Shown here: in pieces, positions 1 to 60,000 of the stretch
Layout of the letters: each line of letters starts with the position of its first letter
How positions within the stretch are numbered: position 1 is the first letter of the stretch
Assembly: GCF_001971585.1 (NCBI RefSeq)
Contig: NZ_CP019323.1
Coordinates: 62,001 to 126,000, forward strand
Length of the DNA: 64,000 nucleotides
Direction of reading: 5' to 3'
From: Companilactobacillus allii
GTDB taxonomy: Bacteria > Bacillota > Bacilli > Lactobacillales > Lactobacillaceae
Program-made: the position numbers and the translations under genes
Notes under the pieces: generated by a model
The model's database searches: none
What the model saw: only the letters and a program-made list of their open reading frames with translations
Told to the model about the DNA's origin: nothing

Positions 1-531
1 TTTTACTAAAGCGTCTATTTCATCTTCGTTACTTTTATTTGATAAATGAAATATTTGTACACGTGATCTAATAGTTTGTAATAATTGCTTAGCTGAGTTT
101 GTCAAAAAAATGATCAGTAAATTACCTTCTGGCTCCTCAATTGTCTTAAGCAAGTTATTACTGGCGGCATTAGTCATTTTCTCGGCTTCATCAATAATCA
201 AAATCCTACGATTACCTTGAGTTGCTGTCATATTTACTTCTTTTTTAAAATACTTTATATCGTCAACACCGATACTTTGCTTGTCTGTTTTAATTTCAAG
301 AACATCTGGATTATCCCCCATAGCAATCGTCTTGCAACGTTGACAGGTTTGATCAGGTAATCCATCTTGCAAATTTTCACAGAACTGTGTTTGGGCAAGC
401 CAAATAGCAACTTGTTGACGTACTTTAGAAGAAGCATTATCTATCAAATAAGCATGTGAAAGTTTATTTGAATTAATAATTTTTTTGAATTCATTAATAA
501 CACGTGGTTGCTCTTCTAATATATTTTCCAT
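1..531 (-). CDS. holB: DNA polymerase III delta-prime subunit (partial, 3' end outside window)
   Basis: The delta-prime subunit works in the clamp loader that places the beta clamp on DNA. The visible 177 codons start MENILEEQPRV and contain a motif RRILIIDEAEKM (Walker-B-like) followed by NNLLKTIEEPEGN, typical of this AAA+ family. A cysteine group (CENLQ..CQRC) sits where the family often binds zinc. The gene continues past the left edge, so the C-terminus is not seen. It follows tmk and darA directly, the usual Firmicutes order tmk-darA-holB, and starts 3 nt after the darA stop, suggesting translational coupling. Confidence 0.93.
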   Translation of the reverse strand, partial: MENILEEQPRVINEFKKIINSNKLSHAYLIDNASSKVRQQVAIWLAQTQFCENLQDGLPDQTCQRCKTIAMGDNPDVLEIKTDKQSIGVDDIKYFKKEVNMTATQGNRRILIIDEAEKMTNAASNNLLKTIEEPEGNLLIIFLTNSAKQLLQTIRSRVQIFHLSNKSNEDEIDALVK

Positions 532-534
532 TTT

Positions 535-858
535 TTAAAATCTTACGAATTTATCCACAGGTAGGATAAAGCAAGTAGCTCCTCCAACTTCAACCTCAAC
601 TGGATCATTAATACCAGCTGCTTCTGGCAATGCAAATGTTGAGGTTACATATTGTGTTCTTGTGTGACAGGTCTTTTTAATAACTTCAAGTGCATCATCA
701 ACTTTGTCATCTTCAACTCCGATAATGAAAGTTGAATTTCCGGCTTTTAAGAATCCACCGGTCGAAGGAAGTCTAGTTGCTCTAAAGTCACCTTTTATAA
801 GGTGTGTTTGTAATTGTTGACTATCTTTATCTTGCACAATGGCTAAAATTACTTTCAT
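535..858 (-). CDS. darA: Cyclic-di-AMP receptor, PII-like (DarA/PstA family)
   Basis: A 107-residue PII-like protein beginning MKVILAIVQDKD. This family forms trimers in the cytoplasm that bind cyclic-di-AMP; the downstream partner is not firmly known. The sequence carries the expected glycine-rich segment (STGGFLKAGNSTFIIGVEDDKV) between the first two strands. A start eight codons upstream is possible, but the chosen ATG has AAAGGAG at good distance, so I prefer it. It lies between tmk and holB, the conserved location. The old name PstA should not be confused with the phosphate permease gene at 46455. Confidence 0.93.
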   Translation of the reverse strand: MKVILAIVQDKDSQQLQTHLIKGDFRATRLPSTGGFLKAGNSTFIIGVEDDKVDDALEVIKKTCHTRTQYVTSTFALPEAAGINDPVEVEVGGATCFILPVDKFVRF

Positions 859-859
859 A

Positions 860-1510
860 TTATTCTCCTTTGTTGAACACATTCGGAAATCTATTAATAA
901 TTACATTTAATGCATCATCAACTACTTTTTCAGGAGCCTGATTCGCATTAATACTCTTTATTCTATCAGGATTAGCGTCTACTAAGTCAAGATATGCGCT
1001 GTGAACTCGTTTATGAAAGCTCAATGCTTCCTTTTCCAAACGATCCATTTCGCCTTCATGATCTTTGCGTATTCTAGATAATCCTACTTCTGGTGAGATA
1101 TCAAAATAGATAGTTAAGTCTGGTAAAGTACCGTTAATTGCAAAATCATTTATTTCAGCAACTTCTTTAGTACCTATTTCACGTCCACCACCTTGATAGG
1201 CAATTGAACTGTCCACAAATCTGTCACTTAATAATATTTTGTTATCAGCCAATGAAGGTCTTATTACATCGACAACATGTTGACGACGTGCTGCTGCATA
1301 CAAAAGTGCCTCAGTTCTATCGTCCATTTTTTCATCGTGAATTGCCAAAATTATCTTCCTGATCTGTTCAGCAATTTCACTACCACCAGGCTCTCTAGAC
1401 AACACGATATCTTGGTTAGCACGTTGTTTCAACAATGGTACTAATGCATTTAAAGCAGTAGTCTTACCTGCTCCATCTGGTCCCTCAAAAGATATAAATA
1501 ATCCTGACAT
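860..1510 (-). CDS. tmk: Thymidylate kinase
   Basis: Phosphorylates dTMP to dTDP with ATP in the cytoplasm. The 216-residue product is full length. The P-loop GPDGAGKT is at residues 10-17, DRFVDSSIAYQG is the dTMP-binding DR(Y/F)-type motif near residue 96, and an arginine-containing LID segment follows. The start has GGGAG upstream. It ends 1 nt before the darA start, so tmk, darA and holB are very likely one transcript. The 284-nt upstream gap holds a palindromic repeat that may separate it from yaaL. Confidence 0.96.
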   Translation of the reverse strand: MSGLFISFEGPDGAGKTTALNALVPLLKQRANQDIVLSREPGGSEIAEQIRKIILAIHDEKMDDRTEALLYAAARRQHVVDVIRPSLADNKILLSDRFVDSSIAYQGGGREIGTKEVAEINDFAINGTLPDLTIYFDISPEVGLSRIRKDHEGEMDRLEKEALSFHKRVHSAYLDLVDANPDRIKSINANQAPEKVVDDALNVIINRFPNVFNKGE

Positions 1511-1683
1511 TTAGTACTCTCCCTTTTAATACGTTGTTTCTATTTTACTTGATATTAGTATTTCGGTAAAGCGAACTACTAACTTTCCTAAAAAGTGTAT
1601 GTAATAATATACTGTTAATTTTATAATTATGGGACAAGAAAAATTGTGGCATATATAGTTTTCTATCTAATTTGTAGTAGAGA

Positions 1684-1797
1684 TTTGCGACTGAACACAA
1701 TTTTCTCCTTATAAGTTCAAAAATCCGATATTTACTTGCGTAAATACCGGATTTTTGAATTTATAAACGAAAACTGAACGTGTTCAGTCGCACTCTA
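1684..1797. repeat. Palindromic intergenic repeat, copy 1
   Basis: Outer arms TGCGACTGAACAC (1686-1698) and GTGTTCAGTCGCA (1780-1792) are perfect reverse complements. An inner 20-bp stem with core ATTTAC-ttgc-GTAAAT lies at 1716-1760. The element is nearly mirror-symmetric over about 110 bp and fills the tmk-yaaL gap. The same sequences recur at 20386, 25206, 29359 and 54333, with mini-copies elsewhere. The rest of the gap (1511-1683) shows nothing further. Confidence 0.85.
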
Positions 1798-2082
1798 CCA
1801 ATGTTTCTCAGCTCGGCTAGGTTGCTTCAAGAAAGTATCCTCATCACCAAAAATAATATCTGTAGTCTGTTTGGCTTGGGCTTTTCTTCGTCTGGCCTCT
1901 AAATATAAAAATTGATATTTGGCACGATCTGCCCTCAACTGTAACTGAGTTGCATCTGTAACTTCTAGTGAGTTATTCATCAATCTTTGAACATTACTAA
2001 TACGACGTTGAATATCATGAATACTATCCATTAGACGATCATTTTCGATTTTTTCAACGCTCTTCTTTTTCTTACCAAACAT
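1795..2082 (-). CDS. yaaL: YaaL-family protein (DUF2508)
   Basis: A 95-residue charged, helical protein of unknown function, starting MFGKKKKSVEKIEND. Its length, basic N-terminus, central heptad-like helices rich in R, Q and L, and its position right after recR all match the DUF2508/YaaL family of Bacillota. No enzymatic motif is visible. It starts 1 nt after the recR stop, so the two are almost certainly co-transcribed. The gene name rests on synteny plus general sequence character. Confidence 0.8.
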   Translation of the reverse strand: MFGKKKKSVEKIENDRLMDSIHDIQRRISNVQRLMNNSLEVTDATQLQLRADRAKYQFLYLEARRRKAQAKQTTDIIFGDEDTFLKQPSRAEKHW

Positions 2083-2083
2083 G

Positions 2084-2683
2084 TTAAATCTCCCTGCGTC
2101 CTAGAACAGCACTCTTCAAAGTCATTTCATCTGCATATTCAATATCAGATCCTACGGCCAATCCATGTGCGAGTCTAGTTACTTTGATACCTGCCGGTTT
2201 TACCAGTTTGGCTAAATATTGCGCTGTTGCTTCTCCTTCTGGAGTTGCGTTAGTTGCAATAATTAATTCCTGAACTTTGCTATTTTCACGTAAACGATTC
2301 AATAGCATTTTTATGTTCAAATCCTCTGGACCTACGCCATCAACTGGAGATAACACCCCTCCAAGAACATGATACAATCCGTTATAACTATTCATGTCAT
2401 CTAGTGACATTATATCTTTTGGCTGTTCAACTACCAAGATTGTTGATTGGTCACGATCCTTATCACTACAAATGGAACAAATATCATCTGTTGTAATATT
2501 GCCACAGATCTTGCATGACTTAAGGTCTGTCTTAGCAGACATTAAGTTATCAGCAAATTCTTGTACCTGACTTTTGTCCATTCCTAATGTAAAGAACGCC
2601 ATTCTAGTGGCCGTTTTACGACCTATTCCTGGTAATGTCATATAACTATCAATTAATTTTGAAATTGGCTCTGGATATCTCAT
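2084..2683 (-). CDS. recR: Recombination mediator RecR
   Basis: RecR acts with RecO (and RecF) to load RecA on gapped DNA. The 199-residue product is the usual size. It shows an N-terminal helix-hairpin-helix ([14 protein letters not shown]), a four-cysteine zinc finger (CKICGN...CSIC, about residues 57-72), a Toprim domain beginning [10 protein letters not shown], and a C-terminal Walker-B-like segment ([17 protein letters not shown]). It is packed between ybaB and yaaL with 1-3 nt spacings, the standard dnaX-ybaB-recR arrangement. Confidence 0.97.
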
Positions 2684-2686
2684 TGA

Positions 2687-3016
2687 TTACATCAACCCGT
2701 TTGTGTATTTGCCTAACTTAGCATCTTTATCTTTGTCGACCTTTGAAAATCCATCATTCAATGCATCAATCAACATATCCTGCAATGTATCTGGATCATC
2801 TGGATCAATAATCTTTTCATCGATTTTTATATCTATAATCTTTTTATCACCATTCATTTTAACAACTGCAAAGTCGTCAACTGAGTTACCAACATATTCT
2901 GTTTTACTTAATAACTCTTGTGCTGCTGCTACTTCTTTTTGCATTTTTTGAGCTTGGCGCATGATGTTACCCATGTTTCCACCCATTCCACCCATATTTG
3001 GCATTCCTTTACTCAT
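2687..3016 (-). CDS. YbaB/EbfC-family nucleoid-associated protein
   Basis: A 109-residue small DNA-binding protein that in other bacteria binds DNA as a dimer; its precise role is not settled. The N-terminus is Met/Gly-rich (MSKGMPNMGGMGGNMGN), followed by the helix MRQAQKMQKEVAAAQELL typical of the family and then the beta region with VKMNGDKKI. A strong AGGAGG site precedes the ATG. It sits between dnaX and recR, its classic position. Confidence 0.95.
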   Translation of the reverse strand: MSKGMPNMGGMGGNMGNIMRQAQKMQKEVAAAQELLSKTEYVGNSVDDFAVVKMNGDKKIIDIKIDEKIIDPDDPDTLQDMLIDALNDGFSKVDKDKDAKLGKYTNGLM

Positions 3017-3038
3017 AATAATTCCTCCTTAATTCTTA

Positions 3039-4766
3039 TTAGTCATCTTTAATTTCAACTGCTCCATCATTACCAAATAACTTTAAAGCCTCATCGACAG
3101 TTGGATCAGTCTGTTTTTGTTCTTGTTTAGATTCTACATTTTCACTCTTAGATAAATCAATATTATTATCAATGTATTCTTTACGTACTACTGGCCATTG
3201 TGCTTTCGGAACTAAGACGATTTGATAATCTTTTTTTAACAGTTTACTTACATTATTAGTTAACTCGTCAATGAATTCATGATCTTCTTGTGCTTTTTCA
3301 AACCACATTTCATAATCAAACGCCACGACAATACCGCTGTCACAAGCAGCAACTGGATCTGAAACACTCATTATCGAACGTTGTGTAACTGAAAGCATAC
3401 TCATCAAATCAGGCCAAATATCCTTCACAGTAATTAAATCTTTTTTTGTGGCCTTTTCCAATACTTGATAAATTGCTGTTTTATTGATACGAACTCCGCC
3501 AGCACGTTTAGTGGGTTTTGTACTTGCAGTTTTTTGTTCAGTTCTGTGATTAGAATTATCAGATAACTGTTTAACTTCTTGTTTAAGACTAACAATTTCA
3601 TCACTTAATTTATCAATTTCACTATTATCAACGATAGGAGTCTGTGAATTTTGCTTTGGAGCAGTGATTTGAGGTTGTTGAATTTTAAGTTCACTTATTT
3701 TTACCGTTAAAATTTCCATATAAACGTCAGTTTGATTAGAATTCTTCAGGTTTTTTTGGGTCGCACTGACTTGATCAACTATATAAAACAACCTGGCATT
3801 ATCAAACTTCGTAGCAATAGTTAACAATTCATCTGTCATAACAGATTTGTCCATTTGATCAGATAGATCTGAATTAGAATTATACAAAATCAAATTACGG
3901 CAAACTCGAATTATCATCTCAGTAAATCGTGTTGCTGAACGTCCACTAGCAAGTATCTGATAAAGACTATTTAAGGCATCTGCTGGCTTATTATCAGCAA
4001 TAGCAGTCATATAGGCGACTATTTGTTCATTACTAAGGGCACCGGTAACTTCTTGAGCATTTTTTAAGGTCAACTCATCATCGCCATACGACAATGCCTG
4101 ATCCAAAATGCTTAGTGCATCACGCATACCACCTTCAGCTGAGGCCGCAATAATGTTCAAAGCTTCTTCATCATACTTAATATTCTTATCATTCAAAATA
4201 TAAACCATACGTTCTAATATATCTTGACGTGAAATTCTTCTAAATGTGAAGCTTTGGGTTCTAGATATAATTGTTGCCGGAATTTTTTGTGGTTCAGTCG
4301 TTGCTAAGATAAACATTACATTGGCAGGTGGTTCCTCAAGTGTCTTTAACAATGCGTTGAAGGCACCTTGTGAAAGCATATGTACTTCATCGATAATATA
4401 AACTTTGAACTTAGCTTCGGTTGGTGCATATTTGACCTTATCACGAATATCACGAATTTCTTCAACACCGTTATTAGAGGCGGCATCTATCTCGATAACA
4501 TCATTCAGTCGATTCTCATTAGCTGCAAGACAAATCTCACATTCATTGCATGGTTCACCATCATGAGGATTCAAGCAGTTAACAGCCTTAGCCAAAATCT
4601 TAGCACAAGACGTTTTACCAGTACCACGAGGACCGCTGAATAGATAAGCATGACTGGTCATTTTACTAGCGACCGCATTACGCAAAGTCTGTGTAATAAC
4701 GCCTTGACCAATTACATCTGAAAAAGTTTGGGGACGCCAAACTCGATATAGTGCTTGATATGCCAT
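3039..4766 (-). CDS. dnaX: DNA polymerase III subunits gamma/tau
   Basis: AAA+ motor and organiser of the replicative clamp loader. The 575-residue protein has Walker A GPRGTGKTS near residues 45-53, a four-cysteine zinc module (C..C..C..C within CLNPHDGEPCNECEIC), Walker B VYIIDEVHML and sensor-1 ATTEPQKI. After residue 360 comes a variable Q/K/S/T-rich linker and a tau-like C-terminal domain. I did not find an obvious slippery site for a gamma form. AGGAGG precedes the ATG. The small SRP RNA and its terminator lie immediately upstream. Confidence 0.97.
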   Translation of the reverse strand: MAYQALYRVWRPQTFSDVIGQGVITQTLRNAVASKMTSHAYLFSGPRGTGKTSCAKILAKAVNCLNPHDGEPCNECEICLAANENRLNDVIEIDAASNNGVEEIRDIRDKVKYAPTEAKFKVYIIDEVHMLSQGAFNALLKTLEEPPANVMFILATTEPQKIPATIISRTQSFTFRRISRQDILERMVYILNDKNIKYDEEALNIIAASAEGGMRDALSILDQALSYGDDELTLKNAQEVTGALSNEQIVAYMTAIADNKPADALNSLYQILASGRSATRFTEMIIRVCRNLILYNSNSDLSDQMDKSVMTDELLTIATKFDNARLFYIVDQVSATQKNLKNSNQTDVYMEILTVKISELKIQQPQITAPKQNSQTPIVDNSEIDKLSDEIVSLKQEVKQLSDNSNHRTEQKTASTKPTKRAGGVRINKTAIYQVLEKATKKDLITVKDIWPDLMSMLSVTQRSIMSVSDPVAACDSGIVVAFDYEMWFEKAQEDHEFIDELTNNVSKLLKKDYQIVLVPKAQWPVVRKEYIDNNIDLSKSENVESKQEQKQTDPTVDEALKLFGNDGAVEIKDD

Positions 4767-40667: not shown

Positions 40668-42094
40668 ATGTCACATCCTAGTAAAAAATTTAACAATGTA
40701 AAAGAATGGCTCGGAGTCCCTTACGGCACTGCAAAGCGCTTTCAAAAAGCACAAATTGTTCCTTTTGAATCCAAATATGATTACAGTCAAAGTGGACCAG
40801 CCTCAATACAATTTACAGATCCCGCTTTTTTAACCTCAGACAAAGGTGAAAGTGAAGACTGCTTAAATCTTAATATTTGGGATCCAGATAATTCCCACGA
40901 AAAATTACCAGTTGTGGTCTATATTCACGGTGGTGGTTGGACTTATGGTTCCAATTCTCAAGATACATCAGACTTATCTGGATTAGTGGCCAGTGGTAAG
41001 GCCATCGGTGTTTCCATCAATTACCGTCTTGGACCCTTGGTTGGCTTGAGTTATCCCAATATGGTGGAAAGTTCAAGGATGCTAGTAATCTAGGTTTGCA
41101 AGACATCGTCTTAGCTTTGAAATGGATTAATCAGTATATTGATCTCTTTGGAGGAGATTCTAATCGTGTCACCCTTACAGGTCATAGTGCTGGCTCTTTC
41201 TCATTGTTAACACTTTTGGCTGTGCCTGAAGCTGACGGATTATACAATAAATTGGCAGCATTCTCCGGCTATGCAGCACGTTATATTCCAGCCTGGTGGG
41301 CTGAAGAACTAACACATAAAGTTTTAGAAAAACTAGAACTTACTTCACCGGAACAATTATTAACCATTGATAACAAATTATTGATTGATACAGTTAATCA
41401 AGCGTTACCAACTGATGTTTTGAAACGTGGTAATTTAAATACCAATTCAATTGGAATTGTCGATGACGAATTTTTGCCAAATGGAGTTTTGAAAGCAAAT
41501 CCCGCTGACATTATTAAAGGTGGACAGCATAAAGATATTGATTTAATAATAACTTCAACAACGGACGAAGCAAGTTGGTATGCTGCTAACATTCCGGATA
41601 ACGTCGACCCTAAAACAATTGAAGCTGTGATTGATGAAATGATTTATGATTGCCATATACCACGTAAACAAGCTGAAGATATTGCTTTACATTGTGGAGC
41701 TGGAAAAGAGCAACCACTTAATGTCAGAACCAGATTCTATACAGATTATAATTTCACTTTACCAGCTATCCGTGAAGCACATGATCATGCTAAAGCTGGT
41801 GGACGTGTTTATCAACTAAGCGTTGGACCAGTTGAAGGTTCCCCAGCTTATCATGGTACAGATATGTACGGTATTGTCGGACAAGCTGCACCTAATGCTA
41901 GTCAAGAGCAACTCAAACGCGATAGTTTTATTAGTCAAACATTGCTTAACTTTGCGACTGATCACTACGAAAAGTTATGGTCACCTACGACGGCAGATAA
42001 ATTAATTATCAAAGATATTGGACAAAGACCTTATAACGGAATTGAACATGCAAAATTGGTACTAGAACTATTTAAAGACATCTCTCGTCCATAA
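40668..42094 (+). pseudogene. Carboxylesterase type B (PnbA-like), disrupted by a 1-nt deletion
   Basis: The first frame encodes residues 1 to about 124 (MSHPSKKFNNVKEW..., oxyanion motif HGGGWTYG, NYRLGPL) and stops at 41093. The rest, with the nucleophile in GGDSNRVTLTGHSAGS, is in the next frame from about 41040 to 42094. Adding one G in CCCTTGGTTGG (41034-41044) restores GPLGWLELSQYGGKF, as expected for the family, and a 475-residue protein. So it is either a recent pseudogene or a sequencing error. The substrate of the ancestral enzyme is unknown. GAAGGG precedes the ATG. Confidence 0.88.
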
Positions 42095-43453: not shown

Positions 43454-44188
43454 TTATTCCACAGAAACTAATGGATAATCGTTATTTAAAATATATCCAA
43501 ATCCCCTTACGGTTTTAATCCACTGTGGTTCCTGCGGATTCTTTTCTAATTTATCCCGTAAATGACTAATGTGAATATCGATCGTACGAGTTGAGCCAGC
43601 ATTATCATAACCCCAAACTCCAGCTATCAACTGGTCTCTACTTAACACCTGTCCTCTATGTTGCATTAAATACCACAAAATACTGAATTCTTTAGGTGTC
43701 AATCCCAAATCATTGCCTGATTGTGAAACGCGATAATGTTTCAAATCAATTGATAAGTCATGACATTTAACAGTTGTATTAGTGTCTCTAGATAATTGTT
43801 TTCTAGCTTCATTAACAGCAAACTTATCATATACCCAAAACAGTTGTTTAAATTTAGCAATCAATTCTGGATATTCTAGGGGTGCAACAAGATATGAATC
43901 AACATTTATATCATAAAATAATTTACGTTCGTTTCTTTTTTTTATTGGAGACAACACAATAATAGGACCATCAACTTTGTTTCGAATCTTTTCCAATATT
44001 TCTAATGATGTTTGTAAATCAGTTGTAGCTAGATCCCAGATGAGTCCTGATACATTATTGTTATCCACCATTTCAACAGTTTTTTGCGGTGATGTCATAT
44101 TATGTATGAACCACCCCTGACTGTTGCAGTAACTATTCATTTCTATAAATAATGGTAAATTTTTGCTTAATAGCACCAATGGTCGCAT
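43454..44188 (-). CDS. OmpR/PhoB-family response regulator with atypical receiver
   Basis: A 244-residue regulator. The C-terminal winged helix is canonical (LTPKEFSILWYLMQHRGQVLSRDQL, DIHISHLRDKLE, IKTVRGFGYIL; ~145-238). The receiver is degenerate: the N-terminal acidic pair is missing (VLLSKNLP), the likely phosphoacceptor is D52 in GLIWDLATT, and the conserved Lys is replaced by Ala (YLVAPLEY). No histidine kinase gene is adjacent. It is divergent from pstS, suggesting control of phosphate uptake. It could work as an unphosphorylated or protein-gated regulator; this is inference. Confidence 0.88.
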   Translation of the reverse strand: MRPLVLLSKNLPLFIEMNSYCNSQGWFIHNMTSPQKTVEMVDNNNVSGLIWDLATTDLQTSLEILEKIRNKVDGPIIVLSPIKKRNERKLFYDINVDSYLVAPLEYPELIAKFKQLFWVYDKFAVNEARKQLSRDTNTTVKCHDLSIDLKHYRVSQSGNDLGLTPKEFSILWYLMQHRGQVLSRDQLIAGVWGYDNAGSTRTIDIHISHLRDKLEKNPQEPQWIKTVRGFGYILNNDYPLVSVE

Positions 44189-44465
44189 CTATCCAAACTT
44201 CCTTCCAGTCATCTGTATTGCAATGATTGTCATCTATCACGACTGACATTACCACTATGGATAGAATTACAAGAACAGATAAGTGGTTTCGCCGTATTTA
44301 CAACCTTGCTAATTGATTATAACTTAATAACACATTATCGTAATCTATTTTGCGTAATTTGAATATTGTAATTTGATATAGACCAATACAAATTGAATAA
44401 TTGATTTTTAAGAAAAAAATTAACAACCAAACTTATATGCTTGAACAAATAAATAAATTCAACAT

Positions 44466-44503
44466 TTACACAATTTTTACAAAAGACAAACAAGAATTAT
44501 ACA
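44466..44503 (+). promoter_or_regulatory. pstS promoter with Pho-box-like direct repeat
   Basis: TTACACAATTTTTACA (44466-44481) contains two TTTACA-type repeats 11 bp apart (44465 and 44476). The second serves as -35; TATACA at 44498-44503 is the -10 with 16-nt spacing. The same arrangement precedes phnD. The remainder of the 368-nt gap is AT-rich with no gene seen. Confidence 0.72.
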
Positions 44504-44556
44504 TTAACAAGTTATATTTTTAGTAAGTACTAAATATTGTTAACAAGGGGTTAATT

Positions 44557-45456
44557 ATGAAGAAGAAAAATATCATTTCTGCAATTATCTTATTCGGTGC
44601 TTTCATTGCCGTGTTAGCTGGTTGTAGTAACAGTAGCAAGAGTAGTAGCAGTACAAGTTCAGCAGACTCTAGTGCTTCTGGTAAAGTTACAGTTGTTGGT
44701 TCAACCGCTCTACAACCATTGGTTGAAAAAGCAGCAAGCAATTTCCAAAAGGACAATAGTAAGATCAACGTTACAGTGCAAGGTGGCGGTTCCGGTACTG
44801 GTTTAAGCCAAGTCCAAGATGGTTCAGTTTCAATCGGTAATTCAGATATCTTCGCAGAATCAAAAGATGGAATTGATGCTAAGAAGTTAGTTGATCACAA
44901 GGTTGCAGTTGTCGGTATGGCACCAGTTGTCAATAAAGAAACCGGTGTTAAGAACTTAACTATGGAACAACTAAAAAATATCTTCACTGGTAAAATCACA
45001 AACTGGAAAGATGTTGGCGGTAAAGATCAAGAAATTACAGTTGTTAACCGTGCCGAAGGTAGTGGTACACGTGCTACTTTTGAAGATGCCGTACTAGGCG
45101 GAAGCAAAGCGGTTAAATCACAAGAACAAGACTCAAATGGTACTGTTCAAAAAATTGTTTCAAGCACACCTGGTGCTATAAGTTACTTAGCATTCTCATA
45201 CTTAAACGACAAAGTTCAAGCTGTCTCAATCAATGACATTAAACCTACAGATAAGAATGTTGAAACAAGTGACTGGCCTATATGGTCATATGAACATATG
45301 TATACAAAAGGTGATGCCAAAGGTGCAACAGCTAAATTCTTGAAATACATGGACTCAAGTGCAGTTCAAAAAGAATTAGTTGGTAAGATGGGATACATTA
45401 GTATTCATGATATGAAAGTTCAAAAAGACGCCAAAGGTAATGTTTCTAACAAGTAA
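44557..45456 (+). CDS. pstS: Phosphate ABC transporter, substrate-binding lipoprotein
   Basis: Extracellular phosphate-binding protein, 299 residues. The signal peptide ends in lipobox LAGCSN (Cys 22), followed by a Ser-rich linker. Binding-site motifs include VGSTALQPLVE, GGGSGTGLSQV and NRAEGSGTRATF. AAGGGG precedes the ATG. It is the first gene of pstSCAB. Confidence 0.97.
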   Translation: MKKKNIISAIILFGAFIAVLAGCSNSSKSSSSTSSADSSASGKVTVVGSTALQPLVEKAASNFQKDNSKINVTVQGGGSGTGLSQVQDGSVSIGNSDIFAESKDGIDAKKLVDHKVAVVGMAPVVNKETGVKNLTMEQLKNIFTGKITNWKDVGGKDQEITVVNRAEGSGTRATFEDAVLGGSKAVKSQEQDSNGTVQKIVSSTPGAISYLAFSYLNDKVQAVSINDIKPTDKNVETSDWPIWSYEHMYTKGDAKGATAKFLKYMDSSAVQKELVGKMGYISIHDMKVQKDAKGNVSNK

Positions 45457-45535
45457 TTCTGAGGGATTTTGACTAGTAGTGTTTTTGACTTGTCGGAATC
45501 TCTTTTTTTATGTCTCAATTTATAGGAGGCTCCAA

Positions 45536-46465
45536 ATGGATGATATTCAAAAAAAATTACAACAAAGTTCAAAAGCCACCAGACAAGAACGTCTAGGTAA
45601 ATCAATTTGTTATACATGTATTGGTTTAATTATTCTTTTGGTTGCATGTATATTGTATTTCATTGCATCAAAAGGAATTGCCACATTTACTAGAGATCAT
45701 GTAAATATTTGGCAATTTTTAACTACATCTAACTGGGAACCAGGAAATCTGGATAGTAAAGGCAGACCCATGATTGGTGCCTTACCAATGATAGTAACCT
45801 CTTTTAGTGTTACTTTACTTGCAGCTTTAGTCGCTACCCCTTTTGCAATTGGAGTGGCAATCTTCATGACCGAAATTTCAGCAAGAAATGGTGCCAAGTT
45901 CCTACAACCAGTTATTGAATTATTGGTAGGTATTCCTTCTGTTGTCTATGGATTTATCGGACTTTCATTGATAGTCCCATTCATAAGAAACATATTTGGA
46001 GGTACTGGATTTGGTATATTATCAGGAACACTAGTCCTTTTTGTCATGGTATTACCAACCATTACTTCATTGACCGTTGATAGTTTAAAGTCAGTTCCCA
46101 TGCACTATCGTCAAGCATCTTTAGCACTTGGAGCTACAAGATGGCAGACTATTTACAAAGTTATTCTTAGAGCTGCAACACCTGGAATACTCACTGCCAT
46201 TATTTTTGGTATGGCACGTGCCTTTGGTGAAGCTCTAGCAGTTCAAATGGTTATTGGTAATGCACTTTTGATGCCAAAAAATTTAGTATCACCAGCTTCT
46301 ACTTTGACAAGTAAATTAACAACCGATATTGGTAATACTGTAATGGGTACTCTTCCAAATGATGCCTTATGGTCACTTGCCTTGATTCTTTTATTAATGT
46401 CTTTAATTTTCAACATGATCGTTAGATTCTTAGGAAAGAGAGGTAACATAAAAAATGCATCCTAA
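45536..46465 (+). CDS. pstC: Phosphate ABC transporter permease PstC
   Basis: Membrane subunit of the high-affinity phosphate importer, 309 residues from MDDIQKKLQQSSK. Six membrane helices are predicted, with the EAA-type loop (YRQASLALGATRWQTIYKVIL). AGGAGG lies 7 nt before this ATG; a longer frame through the pstS-pstC gap is rejected. The C-terminus overlaps pstA by 11 nt. It pairs with PstA in the membrane. Confidence 0.97.
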   Translation: MDDIQKKLQQSSKATRQERLGKSICYTCIGLIILLVACILYFIASKGIATFTRDHVNIWQFLTTSNWEPGNLDSKGRPMIGALPMIVTSFSVTLLAALVATPFAIGVAIFMTEISARNGAKFLQPVIELLVGIPSVVYGFIGLSLIVPFIRNIFGGTGFGILSGTLVLFVMVLPTITSLTVDSLKSVPMHYRQASLALGATRWQTIYKVILRAATPGILTAIIFGMARAFGEALAVQMVIGNALLMPKNLVSPASTLTSKLTTDIGNTVMGTLPNDALWSLALILLLMSLIFNMIVRFLGKRGNIKNAS

Positions 46466-47342
46466 ACGTACAGACAAAATTGCAACCGGAATTATCTATT
46501 GCCTAGTCGCTATGGTAATTATGATACTGATTTTCTTACTGGGATATATTTTAATTAACGGTGTTCCCGATATTTCTTGGCACTTTTTAACTTCCCAAGC
46601 ACAATCCTTTAGTGCCGGTGGTGGTATTCGTGATCAATTATTTAACTCGATTTACTTGTTAATTTTAACTTTAATTATTTCGTTTCCAATCGCTATTGGA
46701 GCTGGTATCTATTTAGCTGAATATGCCAAAGATAACTGGATAACCGATATAATTCGTACTTCAATTGAAGTTCTAAGTTCATTACCTTCTGTTGTTGTTG
46801 GATTATTTGGATATTTACTACTGGTAAATCAGTTTCACTTCGGATTTTCTATTTTATCCGGTGCCATTGCCTTAACCTTTTTCAATCTCCCACTATTAAC
46901 TAGGAATATTGAAGAATCTCTTAACGCTGTACCAAATCTTCAAAAAGAAGCTGGAATCTCGCTAGGATTATCTGAATGGAAAACAATTACAAAAATCATC
47001 ATACCTGAAGCTCTACCAGGTATTTTAACAGGTGTCATTCTTAGTTCTGGTAGAGTCTTCGGTGAAGCCGCTGCTTTAATTTACACAGCCGGTCAAAGTG
47101 CACCAGAAGTTTCTTACACTAATTGGAATATTTTTAGTGCTAGTAGTTTTTTAAACCCCATGAGACCAGCTGAAACATTGGCAGTTCATATTTGGAAAGT
47201 TAACACTGAATCAGTGACCCCTGATGCCCATATAATCTCAGCTGGATCATCTGCTGTCTTGATCATAGTGATTTTGCTCTTCAATCTGAGTGCCAGATTC
47301 ATTGGTAATCGAATCTATAAAAAAATAACGGCTGCAAAGTGA
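46455..47342 (+). CDS. pstA: Phosphate ABC transporter permease PstA
   Basis: Second permease subunit, 295 residues, six helices. It has the EAA-type loop (LQKEAGISLGLSEWKTITKIIIPEALPG) and SSLPSVVVGLFGY. The overlap with pstC implies coupled translation. A hydrophobic C-terminal helix ends in RIYKKITAAK. It is followed 10 nt later by pstB. Confidence 0.97.
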   Translation: MHPKRTDKIATGIIYCLVAMVIMILIFLLGYILINGVPDISWHFLTSQAQSFSAGGGIRDQLFNSIYLLILTLIISFPIAIGAGIYLAEYAKDNWITDIIRTSIEVLSSLPSVVVGLFGYLLLVNQFHFGFSILSGAIALTFFNLPLLTRNIEESLNAVPNLQKEAGISLGLSEWKTITKIIIPEALPGILTGVILSSGRVFGEAAALIYTAGQSAPEVSYTNWNIFSASSFLNPMRPAETLAVHIWKVNTESVTPDAHIISAGSSAVLIIVILLFNLSARFIGNRIYKKITAAK

Positions 47343-47351: not shown

Positions 47352-48146
47352 TTGAAAACATATGACTTTAACGATAACTTCTTTATTAAAATCGATGCTG
47401 AAAATGCGATTGAAACAAAAAATGTTCAAGTATCTTATGGAAAAAACCAAGCAATTTTTGATACAAGTCTTAATTTTCCTAGATTCAAAATAATATCTTT
47501 AATTGGCGCCTCAGGATCTGGAAAATCCACTTATCTTCGTTGTCTAAATCGTATGAATGATAAAATTGCAACAGTAGACGGCAAGATAATGTATCGTAAC
47601 GTAAACATAAACGATCCAAAAACAAACGTATATGAAGTAAGAAAGCATATCGGTATGGTATTTCAACGTCCTAATCCTTTTGCTAAATCGATTCGAGATA
47701 ATATTCAATTTGCTCTTAAAGAAAATGGTATTCACGACAAAAGCGAGCTTGAAGAAAGATTAGAAACTAGCTTACAAGATGCCGCTTTGTGGGAAGAAGT
47801 AAAAGACGAACTGGACTCTAGTGCTTTAGCACTTTCTGGTGGACAACAACAGCGACTTTGCATTGCTAGATCAATCGCCATGAAGCCTGATATTCTATTA
47901 TTAGATGAACCGGCTAGTGCATTGGATCCTATTTCTACTTCAAAAATAGAAGACACTGTTCAACTACTCAGTAAAAATCTAACCGTAATAATTGTTACAC
48001 ATAATATGCAACAGGCTTCACGAATTAGTGATTACACTGCTTTTTTCCATATGGGACACGTTATTGAATATAATGAAACCCGAAAAATCTTTACAAATCC
48101 AAAAATAAAAGCCACCGAGGATTATATTTCCGGTGACTTTGGTTAA
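47352..48146 (+). CDS. pstB: Phosphate ABC transporter ATP-binding protein
   Basis: ATPase of the phosphate importer, 264 residues. Walker A is GASGSGKST, the signature is LSGGQQQRLCIARS and Walker B is ILLLDEPASALD. It has a TTG start with GAGATGA upstream. Many lactobacilli carry two pstB genes and a phoU; only one pstB is here and no phoU follows, the operon ending in a terminator at 48152-48188. Confidence 0.97.
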   Translation: MKTYDFNDNFFIKIDAENAIETKNVQVSYGKNQAIFDTSLNFPRFKIISLIGASGSGKSTYLRCLNRMNDKIATVDGKIMYRNVNINDPKTNVYEVRKHIGMVFQRPNPFAKSIRDNIQFALKENGIHDKSELEERLETSLQDAALWEEVKDELDSSALALSGGQQQRLCIARSIAMKPDILLLDEPASALDPISTSKIEDTVQLLSKNLTVIIVTHNMQQASRISDYTAFFHMGHVIEYNETRKIFTNPKIKATEDYISGDFG

Positions 48147-54472: not shown

Positions 54473-55573
54473 TCAAAAACTCTTTTCTGTATTCTGTATT
54501 TCTTTAATTACCTTTAATAATCTTGCAATATCATCCCTATACACTTCTCCAATATTACCAATTCTGAATGTTGGTACTTTTGAAATTTTACCAGGATAGA
54601 TTACAAATCCTGATTCCTTCAATTTTTGATAGAAGTCATTAAAATCAAAATCATCTGTTGGATAAATAAATGAAGTGATAATCGGTGATTGCCATTTTTT
54701 ATCAATCAATACCTCAAAACCAAGATTTTCCATTCCAAGAGCCAATTGGTTTTGATTTGCTTGGAATCTCTTATAGCGTTTCTGTAATCCACCCTCAAGT
54801 TTTAATTCTTCCAAAGCTTGAGCAAATGCATGGACAACATGTGTTGGTGAAGTAAAACGCCATTTACCGTTATTAATTTCCATCTCATGATATTGATCAT
54901 ATAAATCTAGTGATAATGTCCTAGCAGTACCCTTAGTTGCTTCCAAAACCTTCTTTCTTGCTATTACAAAAGAAAATCCGGGAACACCTTGAATACATTT
55001 ATTAGTACTACTAATCAAAAAATCAATATTAATACCACTTACATCAATTGGAATTCCTCCAAAACTGCTCATAGCATCAACTATCGTAACTATCTTTCGT
55101 TCATGAACCCAAGGAATGATTTCTTCAATTGGATTCAAAACTCCAGTGGTTGTTTCACAGTGTATCATTGCAAAATGTGTGATTTCAGGATGCATTTCAA
55201 CAACTGATTTAATGTCTTCTAATAAAACTGGTTTTTGTTCATCAATTCTTACATCAATATGGTTGATTCCGTACACATCTGCCATTTGGCTGATGCGTTC
55301 CCCATAGGAACCATTTATAGCAATTAATAACGTATCTGAATTGGATATCGTTGAACTGATTACTGACTCTACACCATACGTTCCACTTCCCTGAATGGGA
55401 ACGGCTGTATATTTTGATGGATTTACATCCGCCAAAGCCAACAACGATTGCCTTATTGATTGGGTAATCTCTTTATAGTCATCATCCCAAGTACAATAAT
55501 CAAATTCCATTGCTTTTTTAACTGTACTACTTGTAGTCAATGGACCAGGTGTTAATAATAAATAATTATCCAT
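54473..55573 (-). CDS. phnW: 2-aminoethylphosphonate-pyruvate transaminase
   Basis: PLP enzyme of fold type I that transfers the amino group of 2-aminoethylphosphonate (2-AEP) to pyruvate, giving phosphonoacetaldehyde and alanine. The 366-residue protein has LTPGPLTTS at the N-terminus, GSGTYGVE, HCETTTGVLNP, VDAMSSFGGIP and the PLP Lys in SSTNKCIQGVPG. It overlaps phnX by 8 nt at its start. It is the last gene of the phn operon. Confidence 0.96.
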   Translation of the reverse strand: MDNYLLLTPGPLTTSSTVKKAMEFDYCTWDDDYKEITQSIRQSLLALADVNPSKYTAVPIQGSGTYGVESVISSTISNSDTLLIAINGSYGERISQMADVYGINHIDVRIDEQKPVLLEDIKSVVEMHPEITHFAMIHCETTTGVLNPIEEIIPWVHERKIVTIVDAMSSFGGIPIDVSGINIDFLISSTNKCIQGVPGFSFVIARKKVLEATKGTARTLSLDLYDQYHEMEINNGKWRFTSPTHVVHAFAQALEELKLEGGLQKRYKRFQANQNQLALGMENLGFEVLIDKKWQSPIITSFIYPTDDFDFNDFYQKLKESGFVIYPGKISKVPTFRIGNIGEVYRDDIARLLKVIKEIQNTEKSF

Positions 55574-56363
55574 TGGCTACCTCCTCAGATGCATTCAAAG
55601 TCTGAATAACATCTGGTAATTCAAACATATTATTAATGATAATATCTGATCCTACTTCTTCAAATGTCTTTCTTACCTCATTGCGCTTGACTACTTGTTC
55701 GGATTTTGTCAGTCTATTGAACTCATCTTCAGACAATCCCATAAGACTACTACCTTCAATTACACCAACTGTAATTACACCAGCATTTTGACCCTCTTGA
55801 ATATCGGAGATAGTATCACCAATTTTAAGAACACTATGTAGATCACTAATACTAAATTGCGACACGATATTCTTGATCATAGCTGGAGAAGGTCTACCTT
55901 GACCAGATACATCCTCAGATGTAACTACTAGTTCAGGTAAATATCCTTGGCTTGAAGCACTATTCCTAACAATATTCATCATTTCTAAAGTATAACCAGT
56001 AGTAGTTGCAACACGTATGCTATGTTCTGTTAAATACTTAAAGGTTTCTAACATACCTGGTTTCAATTTAGTCGAAACTTTCAAATGTTTGATTAATGAC
56101 TCTTGAAACAGACCATAGACATTTTCACGATCTTCTTCATTTGGAAGACGATAATATATTTCTTTCCATTGATCCTGTATTCTTGGGATCTCCATAATTT
56201 TGTTAATGTGATCCCACTTGGCAATGCCCATATTCTTTCTAATTTCACTATCCAGAATAGTAATTCCTGCACGATTAAATGCCCTTTTAAAAGCTATAAC
56301 TGGTGCACAACTTCCATAATCAACTGTTGTCCCAGCCCAATCAAATATTACTGTTTTAATCAT
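55566..56363 (-). CDS. phnX: Phosphonoacetaldehyde hydrolase
   Basis: HAD-family enzyme that cleaves the C-P bond of phosphonoacetaldehyde to acetaldehyde and phosphate. The 265-residue protein has FDWAGTTVDYGS (nucleophile Asp, motif I), the Schiff-base Lys in MGIAKWDHI, TTTGYT and KIGDTISDIQEG (motif IV). The chain of phnX and phnW is the complete phosphonatase route. It overlaps phnW, and 17 nt separate it from the permease genes. The start has GGATAA as weak site. Confidence 0.96.
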   Translation of the reverse strand: MIKTVIFDWAGTTVDYGSCAPVIAFKRAFNRAGITILDSEIRKNMGIAKWDHINKIMEIPRIQDQWKEIYYRLPNEEDRENVYGLFQESLIKHLKVSTKLKPGMLETFKYLTEHSIRVATTTGYTLEMMNIVRNSASSQGYLPELVVTSEDVSGQGRPSPAMIKNIVSQFSISDLHSVLKIGDTISDIQEGQNAGVITVGVIEGSSLMGLSEDEFNRLTKSEQVVKRNEVRKTFEEVGSDIIINNMFELPDVIQTLNASEEVANG

Positions 56364-56380: not shown

Positions 56381-57235
56381 CTACTTAACAATGTAAGCTT
56401 TTCTTAATTTAACAGCGATAAATTCCAACAATAAAGTTGCCACAATAACAAGATAAACAATCATCCCGACTTCGTGGAAATCAAAGCTCATTCCACTTGA
56501 AACAAATAATTGATACCCAATTCCACCAGCACCAGCAGCCGCACCCACAGCGACAGCATTGGCAAAATTAATTTCCACTCTTATAAATGTCCATGATACA
56601 AGTGAAGCTATTATTGTTGGCCAAATTGCTTGAAAAACAACAACCCAAAATTTACTTCCGGTTACTTTTAAAGCTTCAATAGTCGACTGATCTATTTCCT
56701 CAATACTCTCTGAATATGCTTTAGTTAGGTAGGCAACACTATGAAAACTTAATCCAAGAACTGCAGCGTTTGTTCCTAAGCCACACACAATGGAGAAGAT
56801 AAGAACCCAAATAATTGTTGGAATAGCACGGATAATTGCCATTATTATTCTAATCCCACCACCAAGATATGCATTGGTCAAATTTTTAGAGGCAAATACT
56901 GCCAATACAAAACCTATAACAGCACCTATCACTGTTGTCATTATTGAAAGTAACAAACTGATTCCTAAAGATTGAAGTAAAAGAACTATCCCATCGCTTC
57001 CCGCACTCGGTTGTAAAAACATTTGACGCAATGTCATCATCAGTCCATGAACAGCTGATCCAATTTTTACACCCGCGGCATCCAAATTCATAAGTGTATA
57101 TATTGTTATCAATGTCAGAAAAGATAATACTGATAGAATCATATACCTCGATAAACTTGCTTCGTGTAACCTAATCTTTTTAGGTTGCTGATCATTTGGA
57201 TCTACAACCAATCTTTCATCACTATTTGAGATCAT
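56381..57235 (-). CDS. phnE: Phosphonate ABC transporter permease PhnE (second copy)
   Basis: A 284-residue permease with about six helices and the EAA-type loop (IEEIDQSTIEALKVTGSKFWVVVFQAIWP). The N-terminal cytoplasmic tail is hydrophilic (MISNSDERLVVDPNDQQPKK). It overlaps the first phnE by 4 nt (translational coupling). Two divergent permeases forming a heterodimer are usual in Gram-positive phn operons. It is located directly before phnX. Confidence 0.94.
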   Translation of the reverse strand: MISNSDERLVVDPNDQQPKKIRLHEASLSRYMILSVLSFLTLITIYTLMNLDAAGVKIGSAVHGLMMTLRQMFLQPSAGSDGIVLLLQSLGISLLLSIMTTVIGAVIGFVLAVFASKNLTNAYLGGGIRIIMAIIRAIPTIIWVLIFSIVCGLGTNAAVLGLSFHSVAYLTKAYSESIEEIDQSTIEALKVTGSKFWVVVFQAIWPTIIASLVSWTFIRVEINFANAVAVGAAAGAGGIGYQLFVSSGMSFDFHEVGMIVYLVIVATLLLEFIAVKLRKAYIVK

Positions 57236-58026
57236 AAGATAACCTTTCTGATTTGATTAGATAAAATTTCCAATGCTATTACAACAACAATTATTAAAAG
57301 AACTGTCATCCCAGCAGCATCAAATCGAAAACTCTTATAATAAATATCAAATACAAAACCAATACCTGTACCGGTTAAAATTCCAACTAATGTCGCATCA
57401 CGTACGTTGTTTTCGATCATATATAGAATCCAACTAATCAAACTGGGCATAATTTGAGGAATTACAGCTTGAAAAATAACCTGTAAATAACTTGCCCCCG
57501 TAGCTTTAAGTGCCAGCATCGTTTCACTAGCTTCGTCTTCGATTATTTCCATGAATGCACGAATTAAATATCCGACAGACAAGAGTAATAGAGCTAAAAA
57601 TCCAGTGAAATCGCTCTGTTTAAAGGAGAAAAGTAGAATCATTGCCCAAGCAACTAATGGAATATTTCTAAAAAATGAAGCTATTCCACGCACAACTGTT
57701 TGAATAACACTATTACCACCAGTAACCTTTGATCCTAAAATTGCCACAAATATTGCAATTATCGATGCAACAACTGTAGAAGCAACTGCTAACATGACTG
57801 TACCAATTAGCTTTTGCCAAATACTAGGTAAATATTGAATGGAATTAGATGTTGGCCTGAAATTGATCCAAAGCCATGTGAACGCTCTAGGTATGGCCAA
57901 AATACCACTTAATCCATCAAACTTGAGGATATAACTACTTAATAGATAAATACTTCCAATAAGTGCGATAACTCCTGTCTGTTTCCAATGTTTTCGAGCT
58001 AAATATTTTACAGGTGTCTGCATCAA
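57232..58026 (-). CDS. phnE: Phosphonate ABC transporter permease PhnE (first copy)
   Basis: A 264-residue permease with six helices and the EAA-type loop (DEASETMLALKATGASYLQVIFQAVIPQ). It overlaps phnC by 4 nt and the following permease by 4 nt. With that permease it would form the channel for 2-AEP or related phosphonates. The motif placement matches PhnE rather than phosphate-specific permeases. Confidence 0.94.
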   Translation of the reverse strand: MMQTPVKYLARKHWKQTGVIALIGSIYLLSSYILKFDGLSGILAIPRAFTWLWINFRPTSNSIQYLPSIWQKLIGTVMLAVASTVVASIIAIFVAILGSKVTGGNSVIQTVVRGIASFFRNIPLVAWAMILLFSFKQSDFTGFLALLLLSVGYLIRAFMEIIEDEASETMLALKATGASYLQVIFQAVIPQIMPSLISWILYMIENNVRDATLVGILTGTGIGFVFDIYYKSFRFDAAGMTVLLIIVVVIALEILSNQIRKVIL

Positions 58027-58778
58027 CCAAGCCCCTCAGTAGTATTTTGATCATATAGTGTCCTTAATATTTCCTCAGATAACATATCAGCCTTTTCATC
58101 AAAAGCCATTTTCCCATCACGAATTCCAATAATTCGATCAGCATAATCCTTGGCCAAACCGATTTGATGTAAATTTGCGATACAAATAATATTGAATTCA
58201 GTGGTTAAATCTTTTAGTAGTTTCATTACTGTTTGAGATGATGCCGGATCTAGTGAAGCAATCGGTTCATCGCAAAGAATGATTTTGGGATGCTGAATTA
58301 ATGACCTAGCTATACCAACACGTTGCTTCTGACCACCACTAAGTTCAGAACAACGTTGCAAAGCAAAATCCTCCAGACCAACTTTACTTAGTAAAGTTAA
58401 AGCCTCTTGTTTTTCCTCTTCAGTATAACGACCAAATATACCAGCAAATGTAGATTTATATCCTAGTCGTCCATGCAAAACATTTTCAATAACAGTCAAT
58501 CTCTCAACTAAGTTGTAATTCTGGAAAACCATTCCAATTTGACGGCGATAATGTCTTAATTGTGTTTTGTTGGCAGTTCTAATATCTCCACCGTCTAAGA
58601 GAATTTGACCACCATCATCTTTGATCAACTGATTCAAGCTTCTTAAGATAGTTGTCTTACCTGCACCAGAAGGACCGATAATTGCAACAAATGTTCCAGG
58701 CTCTACTGAAAAATTGATATCAGTCAAGGCTGGCTTATCTTTTTGATAGCTCTTTTCTAAATGTTTTACCTCTAGCAT
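58023..58778 (-). CDS. phnC: Phosphonate ABC transporter ATP-binding protein
   Basis: ATPase subunit, 251 residues. Walker A is GPSGAGKTT, the signature is LSGGQKQRVGIAR and Walker B is IILCDEPIASLD. The tract FQNYNLVERLTVIENVLHGRLG is characteristic of PhnC. It lies 12 nt after phnD and overlaps the permease by 4 nt. GGGGATAGACGA provides the ribosome site. Confidence 0.96.
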   Translation of the reverse strand: MLEVKHLEKSYQKDKPALTDINFSVEPGTFVAIIGPSGAGKTTILRSLNQLIKDDGGQILLDGGDIRTANKTQLRHYRRQIGMVFQNYNLVERLTVIENVLHGRLGYKSTFAGIFGRYTEEEKQEALTLLSKVGLEDFALQRCSELSGGQKQRVGIARSLIQHPKIILCDEPIASLDPASSQTVMKLLKDLTTEFNIICIANLHQIGLAKDYADRIIGIRDGKMAFDEKADMLSEEILRTLYDQNTTEGLG

Positions 58779-58790: not shown

Positions 58791-59825
58791 TTATTTACCA
58801 ACTAATTCATGAGTAGGTTTATACCAATCATCATCTACAGGTAGTAAAGTCATTTTTGCACTCTTCTTTTGCCATAGAGTTGGTGTCTTTGAACCTGGTT
58901 TAGCCATAAGTTTTGGATTATCTGTAACATCTTTTGATGTGAAACGTTTTTCAATTGCTTTTCTATCTTTATCGCTCAATGCTCCTGTATTAACTACAAA
59001 TGGACCATTTTGAACTGGCAATACTGAAATATCAACTAATTCCTTACCCTTGAAATCTGCAAATGGAGCGTCAGCATCTTCCTTAACTACAAATGTTGAA
59101 CCCACTTTGTTGTAGCTTCCATCTTTTACGTCCAAGAATGGTGTCAAATCAATATCATCAAATGCAGCAACATCAGCGTCACCCTTTAATAAGTTAATTG
59201 CTGATCCAGGATGTGAATTACCATATAGAACCTTATCAAAGAACTTACCACCCTCGGCTAATTTATCTTTGTTCTCTAATTTAAAGTGCTTTTGGATTTC
59301 ATCAGTTGGAACTGCGTATCCTGATGTTGAACTTGTTGAAACAAATGAGATTTTCTCACCTTTGATTTTGTCAATATCATACTTACCATTTTTCTTATAT
59401 GAATCTGCCTTATCTTTAGAAACCATTAAGTATGAACGATAACTGGCTCCTTTATCAGTACCATCTTCACCAGATTGTAATAAGAATGGAACAACCTTCT
59501 TGTTTTGTGCATGTGCTTGAATATAGCCATCTGCACCCATAAATGCCAATTGTGCTTTACCAGAAGCAATCGCTTCGATAGCAACGTTGTAATCAGTAGT
59601 TGTTTGAATCTCTACTTCTTTTCCAGTTGCTTTATGAATTTGTTTCTTCATCTCTTCACGAGATCCTGTGAAGTTCTTTGCTGACTCATTAGGATAAAAT
59701 ACAACCGTAATTTTTCCAGAATCTTTTTTAGCACCTGCGGAATTCTGACTTGAGCATCCAGTCAAAACACCAATAAATAACAACATTAACCCTAAACATA
59801 CCGTTAAAAATCGCCCTTTTCTCAT
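58791..59825 (-). CDS. phnD: Phosphonate ABC transporter substrate-binding lipoprotein
   Basis: A 344-residue lipoprotein binding alkylphosphonates at the cell surface. The signal peptide ends in lipobox LTGCSS (Cys 24). The body has VVFYPNESAKNFTGSREEM, GKAQLAFMGADGYIQA and SFVSTSSTSGYAVPT, the PhnD ligand-pocket pattern. It is the first gene of the operon, and a Pho-box-like promoter lies 58-95 nt upstream. The specificity for 2-AEP is inferred from phnX-phnW. Confidence 0.95.
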   Translation of the reverse strand: MRKGRFLTVCLGLMLLFIGVLTGCSSQNSAGAKKDSGKITVVFYPNESAKNFTGSREEMKKQIHKATGKEVEIQTTTDYNVAIEAIASGKAQLAFMGADGYIQAHAQNKKVVPFLLQSGEDGTDKGASYRSYLMVSKDKADSYKKNGKYDIDKIKGEKISFVSTSSTSGYAVPTDEIQKHFKLENKDKLAEGGKFFDKVLYGNSHPGSAINLLKGDADVAAFDDIDLTPFLDVKDGSYNKVGSTFVVKEDADAPFADFKGKELVDISVLPVQNGPFVVNTGALSDKDRKAIEKRFTSKDVTDNPKLMAKPGSKTPTLWQKKSAKMTLLPVDDDWYKPTHELVGK

Positions 59826-59882
59826 TGCGGAATAACCAACTTTCTATTTCGTTTTAAGTACAAAAAAAGTTTAACAAAAGGA

Positions 59883-59920
59883 TGTATATGTTATTTATAT
59901 TTATTGTAAAGATTGTGTAA
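59883..59920 (-). promoter_or_regulatory. phnD promoter with Pho-box-like direct repeat
   Basis: On the minus strand TTACACAATCTTTACA (59905-59920), then 16 nt, then TATACA (59883-59888). It matches the pstS element at 16 of 17 positions including the next base. A similar TTTACT/TTTACA pair (59937 and 59948, 11 bp apart, plus orientation) lies nearby. Confidence 0.72.
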
Positions 59921-60000
59921 TGATACAAAATAAATCTTTACTATAAATTTACACAAAACATACAATAAATAGTTATATTTGCGCATAAGCAATAGGCACC

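Follow-up and report, generated by a model that had tools for sequence, protein, structure and literature searches.

The window, by which we mean the whole 64,000-nucleotide stretch of the Companilactobacillus allii genome (2,534,178 bases) analysed here, contains a pst operon and a phn operon. The pst operon lies on the forward strand and comprises pstS2, encoding a phosphate-binding lipoprotein (44557..45456; TIGR02136, 283.7 bits), pstC (45536..46465, with the start chosen by eye; TIGR02138, 292.2 bits for 45533-46465), pstA (46455..47342; TIGR00974, 269.7 bits) and pstB (47352..48146; TIGR00972, 370.2 bits). It stops at pstB, and the list of open reading frames (ORFs) shows no phoU in it. 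Divergent from pstS2, on the reverse strand, is the gene for an OmpR/PhoP-type regulator with a pseudo-receiver domain, hereafter aRR (43454..44188; PF00486, 107.8 bits). A plasmid search with the pst locus returned no match. At 40668-42094, a carboxylesterase-like gene (named by eye) is split between two ORFs of 141 and 332 amino acids that do not share a frame, and it looks disrupted.

The phn operon is carried on the reverse strand. It begins with a gene for a phnD-like phosphonate-binding lipoprotein (58791..59825), matched by PF12974 at 120 bits and by TIGR01098 at 112.9 bits, barely above the cut-off of 112.05. This is followed by the ATPase gene phnC (58023..58778; TIGR02315, 340.1 bits) and two phnE-like permease genes, the first (57232-58026) recognized from ORF position and sequence only and the second (56381-57235) matching TIGR01097 at 178.3 bits, under the cut-off of 216.7. 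The operon continues with phnX, encoding phosphonoacetaldehyde hydrolase (55566..56363; TIGR01422, 328.7 bits), and phnW, encoding 2-aminoethylphosphonate-pyruvate transaminase (54473..55573; TIGR02326, 559.2 bits).

Upstream of pstS2 lies TTACACAATTTTTACA (44466-44481, forward strand), and upstream of phnD lies TTACACAATCTTTACA (59905-59920, reverse strand). As an earlier note on this DNA had reported, the two sequences differ at one position and are followed by TATACA after an identical gap of 16 nt. Its remark that the 11-bp repeat resembles PHO boxes is borne out by a four-box register: the 16-nt spacer resolves into 5 + 6 + 5, and each element reads as four hexamers 11 bp apart. The pstS2 array (44465..44503, forward strand) has the layout TTTACA-N5-TTTACA-N5-CAAACA-N5-TATACA, with boxes starting at 44465, 44476, 44487 and 44498. 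The phnD array (59883..59921, reverse strand) has the layout ATTACA-N5-TTTACA-N5-TATAAA-N5-TATACA, with boxes starting at 59921, 59910, 59899 and 59888. Judged by sequence, the element before both genes is a PHO-box array of TWTACA-like hexamers in an 11-bp register.

A genome search for the element, which the earlier note had proposed as a check, returned exactly two exact matches to the pattern TTACACAATYTTTACA, both inside the window, against none for the backwards-read control. When up to three mismatches were allowed, the window held five matches against 5.2 expected, so that the signal resides only in the two exact matches. A genome-wide scan at the same tolerance, with a pattern derived from both sites, gave eight matches (both sites included) against two for the backwards control.

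According to a passage of PMC4415409, the PHO boxes of PhoP and PhoB are 11-nt direct repeat units, and like the elements described here they are arranged in tandem before pst and phosphorus-scavenging genes. The C. allii elements show a conserved core, direct repeats and the 11-nt period, and within this one genome they stand before several operons of the phosphate-scavenging kind (pst, phn and two ugp-like operons). PhoP of Bacillus subtilis recognizes a TT(A/T)ACA-like core in four repeats, with the array in place of the -35 element, and promoters activated by PhoB or PhoP consist of the array, 9 nt and a -10 element, with no -35.

The assignment of TATACA as a -10 element in the earlier note has to be rejected: TATACA is the fourth box of the hexamer series, and a conserved T-A-N-N-N-T sits further 3' at a fixed offset. 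At offsets of 15, 16 and 20 from the start of box 4, the bases T, A and T occur with frequencies of 1.00/1.00/1.00 at 34 pstS2 sites, the same at 29 phnD sites (genome G004 left out, box 4 anchored by TTTACA or TATACA) and 0.92/1.00/1.00 at 24 pstS sites of the wider family. Among 20 other targets, half have C at the first of these positions, all have A at the second, and a fraction of 0.95 has T at the last. The best match to TATAAT falls at offset 15 in 30 of 34 pstS2 sites, 21 of 24 family pstS sites, 15 of 20 other targets and only 16 of 29 phnD sites, which makes phnD the weakest case. The likely -10 elements are TATATT for pstS2 (44513..44518, forward strand), 9 nt past box 4, and TAAACT for phnD (59868..59873, reverse strand), which lies at the conserved offset and is weaker than that of pstS2. 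Inspection of the sequence revealed no -35 element. Since TATACA is not the -10, the distances of 54 and 58 nt to the start codon quoted earlier have the wrong starting point. A chance likeness between the ordinary sigma-A promoters of two genes, as the -35/-10 reading implies, could appeal to the resemblance of TATACA to a -10, but the 11-bp register, the T-A-N-N-N-T at +15, the rarity of the element in the genome and the recovery of phosphorus-uptake operons by the model described below all speak against it, and we regard it as very improbable. What stands of the earlier observation is thus the sequences, their positions and spacing, together with the reading of one Pho-type operator before pstS and phnD.

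Conservation was assessed in 36 Companilactobacillus genomes, the present one included. An aRR ortholog occurs in 34 of them at 57-100% identity. The nearest named relatives found also belong to Companilactobacillus, with regulator identities of 91% for C. hulinensis and 79% for C. nodensis, C. jidongensis and C. insicii. phnD is likewise present in 34, and the same two genomes, G012 and G034, lack both aRR and phnD and carry a single pstS each. A TTTACN-N5-TTTACA pair lies between the regulator gene and pstS2 in all 34 genomes with the regulator. Of the 34 phnD upstream regions, 30 were covered; in 29 of these, all but that of G004, the four-box array reaches p<=0.01 when compared with 300 dinucleotide shuffles.

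To extend the comparison to other genes, a sequence-only model, R1, was built from 31 distinct pstS2 sites; it yields seven near-full-length matches with E < 0.01 in the C. allii genome. These are the pstS2 array itself (E 9e-9, a training member), the phnD array (E 4.0e-4, with phnD sites absent from training), and arrays before a ugpCAEB-like operon (E 8e-5), a ugpBAEC-like operon with a calcineurin-like phosphoesterase gene behind it (E 0.0096), an MFS transporter gene (E 3e-5), a surface-protein gene whose product has SlpA and MucBP_2 domains (E 4e-5), and genes for a TIGR01654-resembling membrane protein and a bacteriocin-export-like ATPase (E 6e-4); for ugp, TIGR01654 and MFS, the matches that supply the names score under the NCBIfam cut-offs. 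The regulon suggested in the earlier note gains from this search, which finds the element before other operons resembling those for phosphorus uptake. That note had also held that the presence of the element before many unrelated genes would count against a shared regulon. Here the outcome is mixed and mostly favourable, with four of the seven arrays preceding phosphorus-uptake operons (pst, phn and the two ugp-like operons) and three preceding other genes. In these genome scans, 150 of the 329-3549 first-look candidates were scored per genome, so that regulon lists may be incomplete; E-values are rough. Across the genus, 20 R1 matches, picked by score or because they lay in G012 or the C. allii genome, were inspected, with downstream ORFs named by eye: nine precede a ugpC-like gene, six an MFS gene, four a surface-protein-like gene (L188, L189, L191 and L205) and one a secreted-protein-like ORF (L202). 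The ugpC-like ATPase gene behind the array in C. allii (L123:317-1399; C1:1378716-1379798) appears as two ORFs in one frame and is a single ORF in the loci of nine relatives. The TIGR01654-like and bacteriocin-export-like target (L124:206-3012) adjoins ribonucleotide reductase-like ORFs.

The strand opposite phnD carries a back-to-back partial array (TTTACT, TTTACA, CATACA; 59937..59964, forward strand; R1 E 0.037), and a reverse array reaches p<=0.01 in 22 of 30 phnD upstream regions. This side faces a divergent aldo-keto reductase-like gene in 8 of 11 phnD loci inspected by eye, the present locus being among the 11. That gene is absent from the C. allii phnD locus, and the partial array may thus be a relic here.

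The same genome contains a canonical locus at 1.43 Mb, with the order phoP-phoR-(cell-wall-hydrolase-like gene)-pstS1-C-A-B-B-phoU, the names being assigned by eye apart from those backed by matches to PF01895 and PF00486 or, for pstS1, by a search. The earlier note missed both this separate phoPR-pst-phoU locus and the absence of phoU from the pst operon in the window. According to PMC11084836, the typical Lactobacillaceae arrangement places phoPR upstream of pstSCAB1B2-phoU, and the pst operon is said there to be unstudied in the family. The canonical C. allii locus follows this pattern, whereas the locus in the window is a second pst operon without phoU or kinase and with a divergent, atypical regulator; section 3 of PMC11084836 makes no mention of such an arrangement. 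Upstream of pstS1, TTTATACAAAAAATATACA was found in all 30 regions examined (30 of the 36 genomes; L044:8690-8745). This element is a two-box TATACA-N5-TATACA pair distinct from the four-box array, so that PhoP of Companilactobacillus may prefer a different site. phoR lies within 1,500 bp upstream of pstS1 in 26 of the 30 loci, G012 among them, and was not found in the upstream stretch examined in G008, G010, G015 and G027.

The earlier note had named the product of 43454-44188 as a regulator, and it overlooked its kinase-less pseudo-receiver nature. The receiver domain of aRR scores 19.8 bits with PF00072, under the cut-off of 30.2, and its active-site positions read SK/D/S/A where PhoP has DD/D/T/K. 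Among 40 aRR sequences (34 from the genus and six from other genera), the metal-binding acid pair is lost in all and replaced by S/T plus N/K/S. All 40 retain the D and 15 retain the K, and 10 have S at the T/S position; the sequence from G057, for example, reads TN/D/K/Q. All 16 PhoP sequences compared read DD-D-T-K. The residues of a phosphorylated-type PhoP receiver are therefore not complete in aRR, which has, judged by these residues, a receiver-like domain without phosphotransfer residues, while the PhoP-type winged helix and recognition helix are present. Mean identity of the DNA-binding domain is 48.5% (31-62) to PhoP, 41.8% (28-50) to WalR and 34.5% (24-47) to six other regulators of the same genome. 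No histidine kinase was recognized by eye beside aRR, either in the window or at seven loci outside the genus. A receiver fold is weakly supported by the predicted structure, in which residues 1-100 alternate between strand and helix and the whole-model mean pLDDT is 48.9. Phylogenetically, 14 aRR sequences form one group with a support of 100/100, in a tree whose root position is unsettled and in which several sequences are long-branched. Simple autoregulation of aRR through the PHO-box element was considered and rejected, the best score for a reverse array at its own promoter being -3.6 across 40 intergenic regions.

With the metal-binding residues for phosphorylation missing, aRR probably acts without phosphorylation and would instead respond through its amount, a partner or a ligand. 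Pseudo-receivers are known among OmpR/PhoB regulators, including ChxR and HP1043 (PMC12632262, PMC3960148 and PMC8345958), and a 2025 review calls the activation mechanisms of bacterial pseudo-receivers a mystery (PMC12632262). Like aRR, ChxR, HP1043 and actinomycete GlnR combine a receiver-like domain devoid of phosphorylation residues with an intact winged helix, and GlnR shares a conserved unphosphorylated Asp, according to the title of a paper on it. The aRR family differs in being tied to pst and PhoP-type arrays.

The association of array and regulators was then surveyed in 37 genomes from outside the genus, one per genus, which were searched for PhoR, pstS and aRR; these genera are related and thus non-independent. 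In total, 51 pstS genes above the family cut-off, including those of G012 and G034, were scored with a box matrix from the pstS2 sites of the genus, leaving out matches under that cut-off (two in G041 and one in G043). Where PhoR occurs without aRR, a pstS array at p<=0.01 was found in 16 of 23 genera, with G042, G051, G052, G056, G064, G067 and G069 falling short and p lying between 0.01 and 0.03 in G056, G067 and G069. Genomes were called PhoR-negative by three features, namely score, frame length and the distance to pst. The scores of PhoR and WalK overlap, and G051, G052, G056, G064 and G065 are less certain carriers because their presumed PhoR match has no pstS next to it on its contig. 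All seven genomes with aRR have a pstS array at p<=0.01 (G039, G048, G057, G060, G061, G066 and G070), and aRR is pst-linked in each of them. PhoR was not found in six of the seven, and the aRR-linked pstS carries the array in all six. By comparison, none of the five genomes that have pstS and neither regulator has an array (six pstS genes; G036, G040, G043, G063 and G071); G062 and G068, also with neither regulator, have no pstS. For the genomes without PhoR, 6/6 versus 0/5 corresponds to a hand-computed Fisher p of about 0.002, ignoring relatedness. The second pstS of G061, unlinked to aRR, has no array, and in G038 and G060 a period other than 11 scores higher in the same region.

A second model, R2, was built from 17 arrays with a clear register in 17 PhoR-only genomes (G056, at p=0.017, included), picked with the box matrix from Companilactobacillus pstS2 sites, and was run on 16 genomes. 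In all six aRR-only genomes, pstS is the top match (E 1.9e-5 to 2.8e-3). The seven genomes with neither regulator, two of them without pstS, range from a best E of 0.057 to no match, and the best matches of G040 and G063, the strongest in this group, lie away from pstS. In C. allii, R2 ranks pstS2 first (E 1.2e-4) and phnD second (E 0.0024). G012 and G034 both have PhoR and only pst1, without aRR. The ugpC-like array of G012 scores E 2.8e-4 with R1 but 1.06 with R2, for which the best E in that genome is 0.212. In G034 there is no convincing array, the best E being 0.066 with R1 and 0.072 with R2.

Given the family-wide association and the recovery of pstS in aRR-only genomes by a model trained on PhoR-only genomes, PhoP and its kinase-less paralogue aRR probably read the same array. 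We assign a probability of about 0.72 to the prediction of a shared PHO-box regulon for which PhoP and aRR are two suited readers. Both proteins have evidence of their own: the array at pstS in PhoR-only genera and the ugpC-like array of G012 point to PhoP, and the contrast between aRR-only genomes and those with neither regulator points to aRR. These same data make it unlikely that canonical PhoP is the sole reader of the arrays, with aRR uninvolved or directed at other DNA. Such a role for PhoP would explain why the array recurs in PhoR-only genera and survives in G012 without aRR, but it leaves aside the six genomes in which no PhoR was found and the array at the aRR-linked pstS is nevertheless the best genome-wide match of R2, as well as the PhoP-type recognition helix of aRR and its linkage to pst in all seven carriers outside the genus.

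The converse, in which pst2 and phn are governed by aRR alone and PhoP is confined to its own pst1 operon, agrees with the different conserved element at pst1 and with the joint presence of aRR and phnD in 34 of 36 genus genomes and their joint absence from two. It is nonetheless doubtful, since G012, which lacks aRR, still has arrays at ugpC-like and MFS genes, and the same pstS array occurs in PhoR-only genera; aRR as the sole reader was rejected on the strength of G012, whose arrays could be remnants after aRR loss. A dead receiver combined with a shared site and recognition helix would also suit a repressor or dominant-negative partner that occupies the PhoP array or heterodimerises with PhoP, and aRR and PhoR do occur together in G048 and at least 25 genus genomes. 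We consider this role improbable as well, because the six genomes in which PhoR was not found keep both the array and an activator-type promoter geometry.

For the shared regulon, we infer array binding by PhoP or aRR, the direction of regulation and the phosphate signal. Four half-sites 11 bp apart, that is, one DNA turn and on the same face, would replace the -35 element; a PhoP-type activator would bind them head to tail and, under phosphate shortage, recruit RNA polymerase. One regulon would then comprise the second Pst transporter, the operon for uptake and breakdown of 2-aminoethylphosphonate and the two ugp-like operons. Phosphorylated PhoP would activate it at low phosphate, whereas the activity of aRR may depend on how much of it is present, on an interaction with PhoP or on some other signal. 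In Companilactobacillus the two proteins could share one array; in the six genomes where no PhoR was found, no candidate reader other than aRR turned up.

Six genera surveyed here differ from the known PhoP/PhoB systems in pairing the array with a pseudo-receiver-linked pst where no PhoR was found. It is an evenly balanced proposition that several Lactobacillaceae genera possess a kinase-less phosphate regulon, in which a pst-encoded pseudo-receiver paralogue of PhoP inherited the arrays after PhoPR loss and senses phosphate without phosphorylation, for instance by interacting with PhoU or Pst or by binding a ligand in the dead receiver. Both regulators would have been retained in Companilactobacillus, perhaps on one array. 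Among the literature matches listed for an orphan or otherwise atypical regulator linked to pst, or for the PhoP regulon of Lactobacillaceae, titles and abstract openings do not describe this arrangement, and the terms PhoP, PnpR and response regulator do not occur in the main text of PMC3616900. Tied to one nutrient, one transporter and one short operator, aRR would be a tractable test case for pseudo-receivers, the more so as related food bacteria have it either alongside PhoPR or in its place. For lactobacilli, the array would also supply a defined Pho operator whose promoter geometry is constant, with the prediction that their phosphate response extends to the uptake of phosphonates and to ugp-like (glycerol-phosphate-type) uptake.

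The setting of aRR outside the genus (L049, L050, L051, L052, L053, L054 and L256) varies by eye. The gene is divergent from pst in G039 and G060, lies just 3' of phoU in G048, G057, G066 and G070, and stands beside a divergent phoU-like gene in G061. The pst operon of G061 has a phoU-like gene at each end, and that of G057 has two pstS genes in a row.
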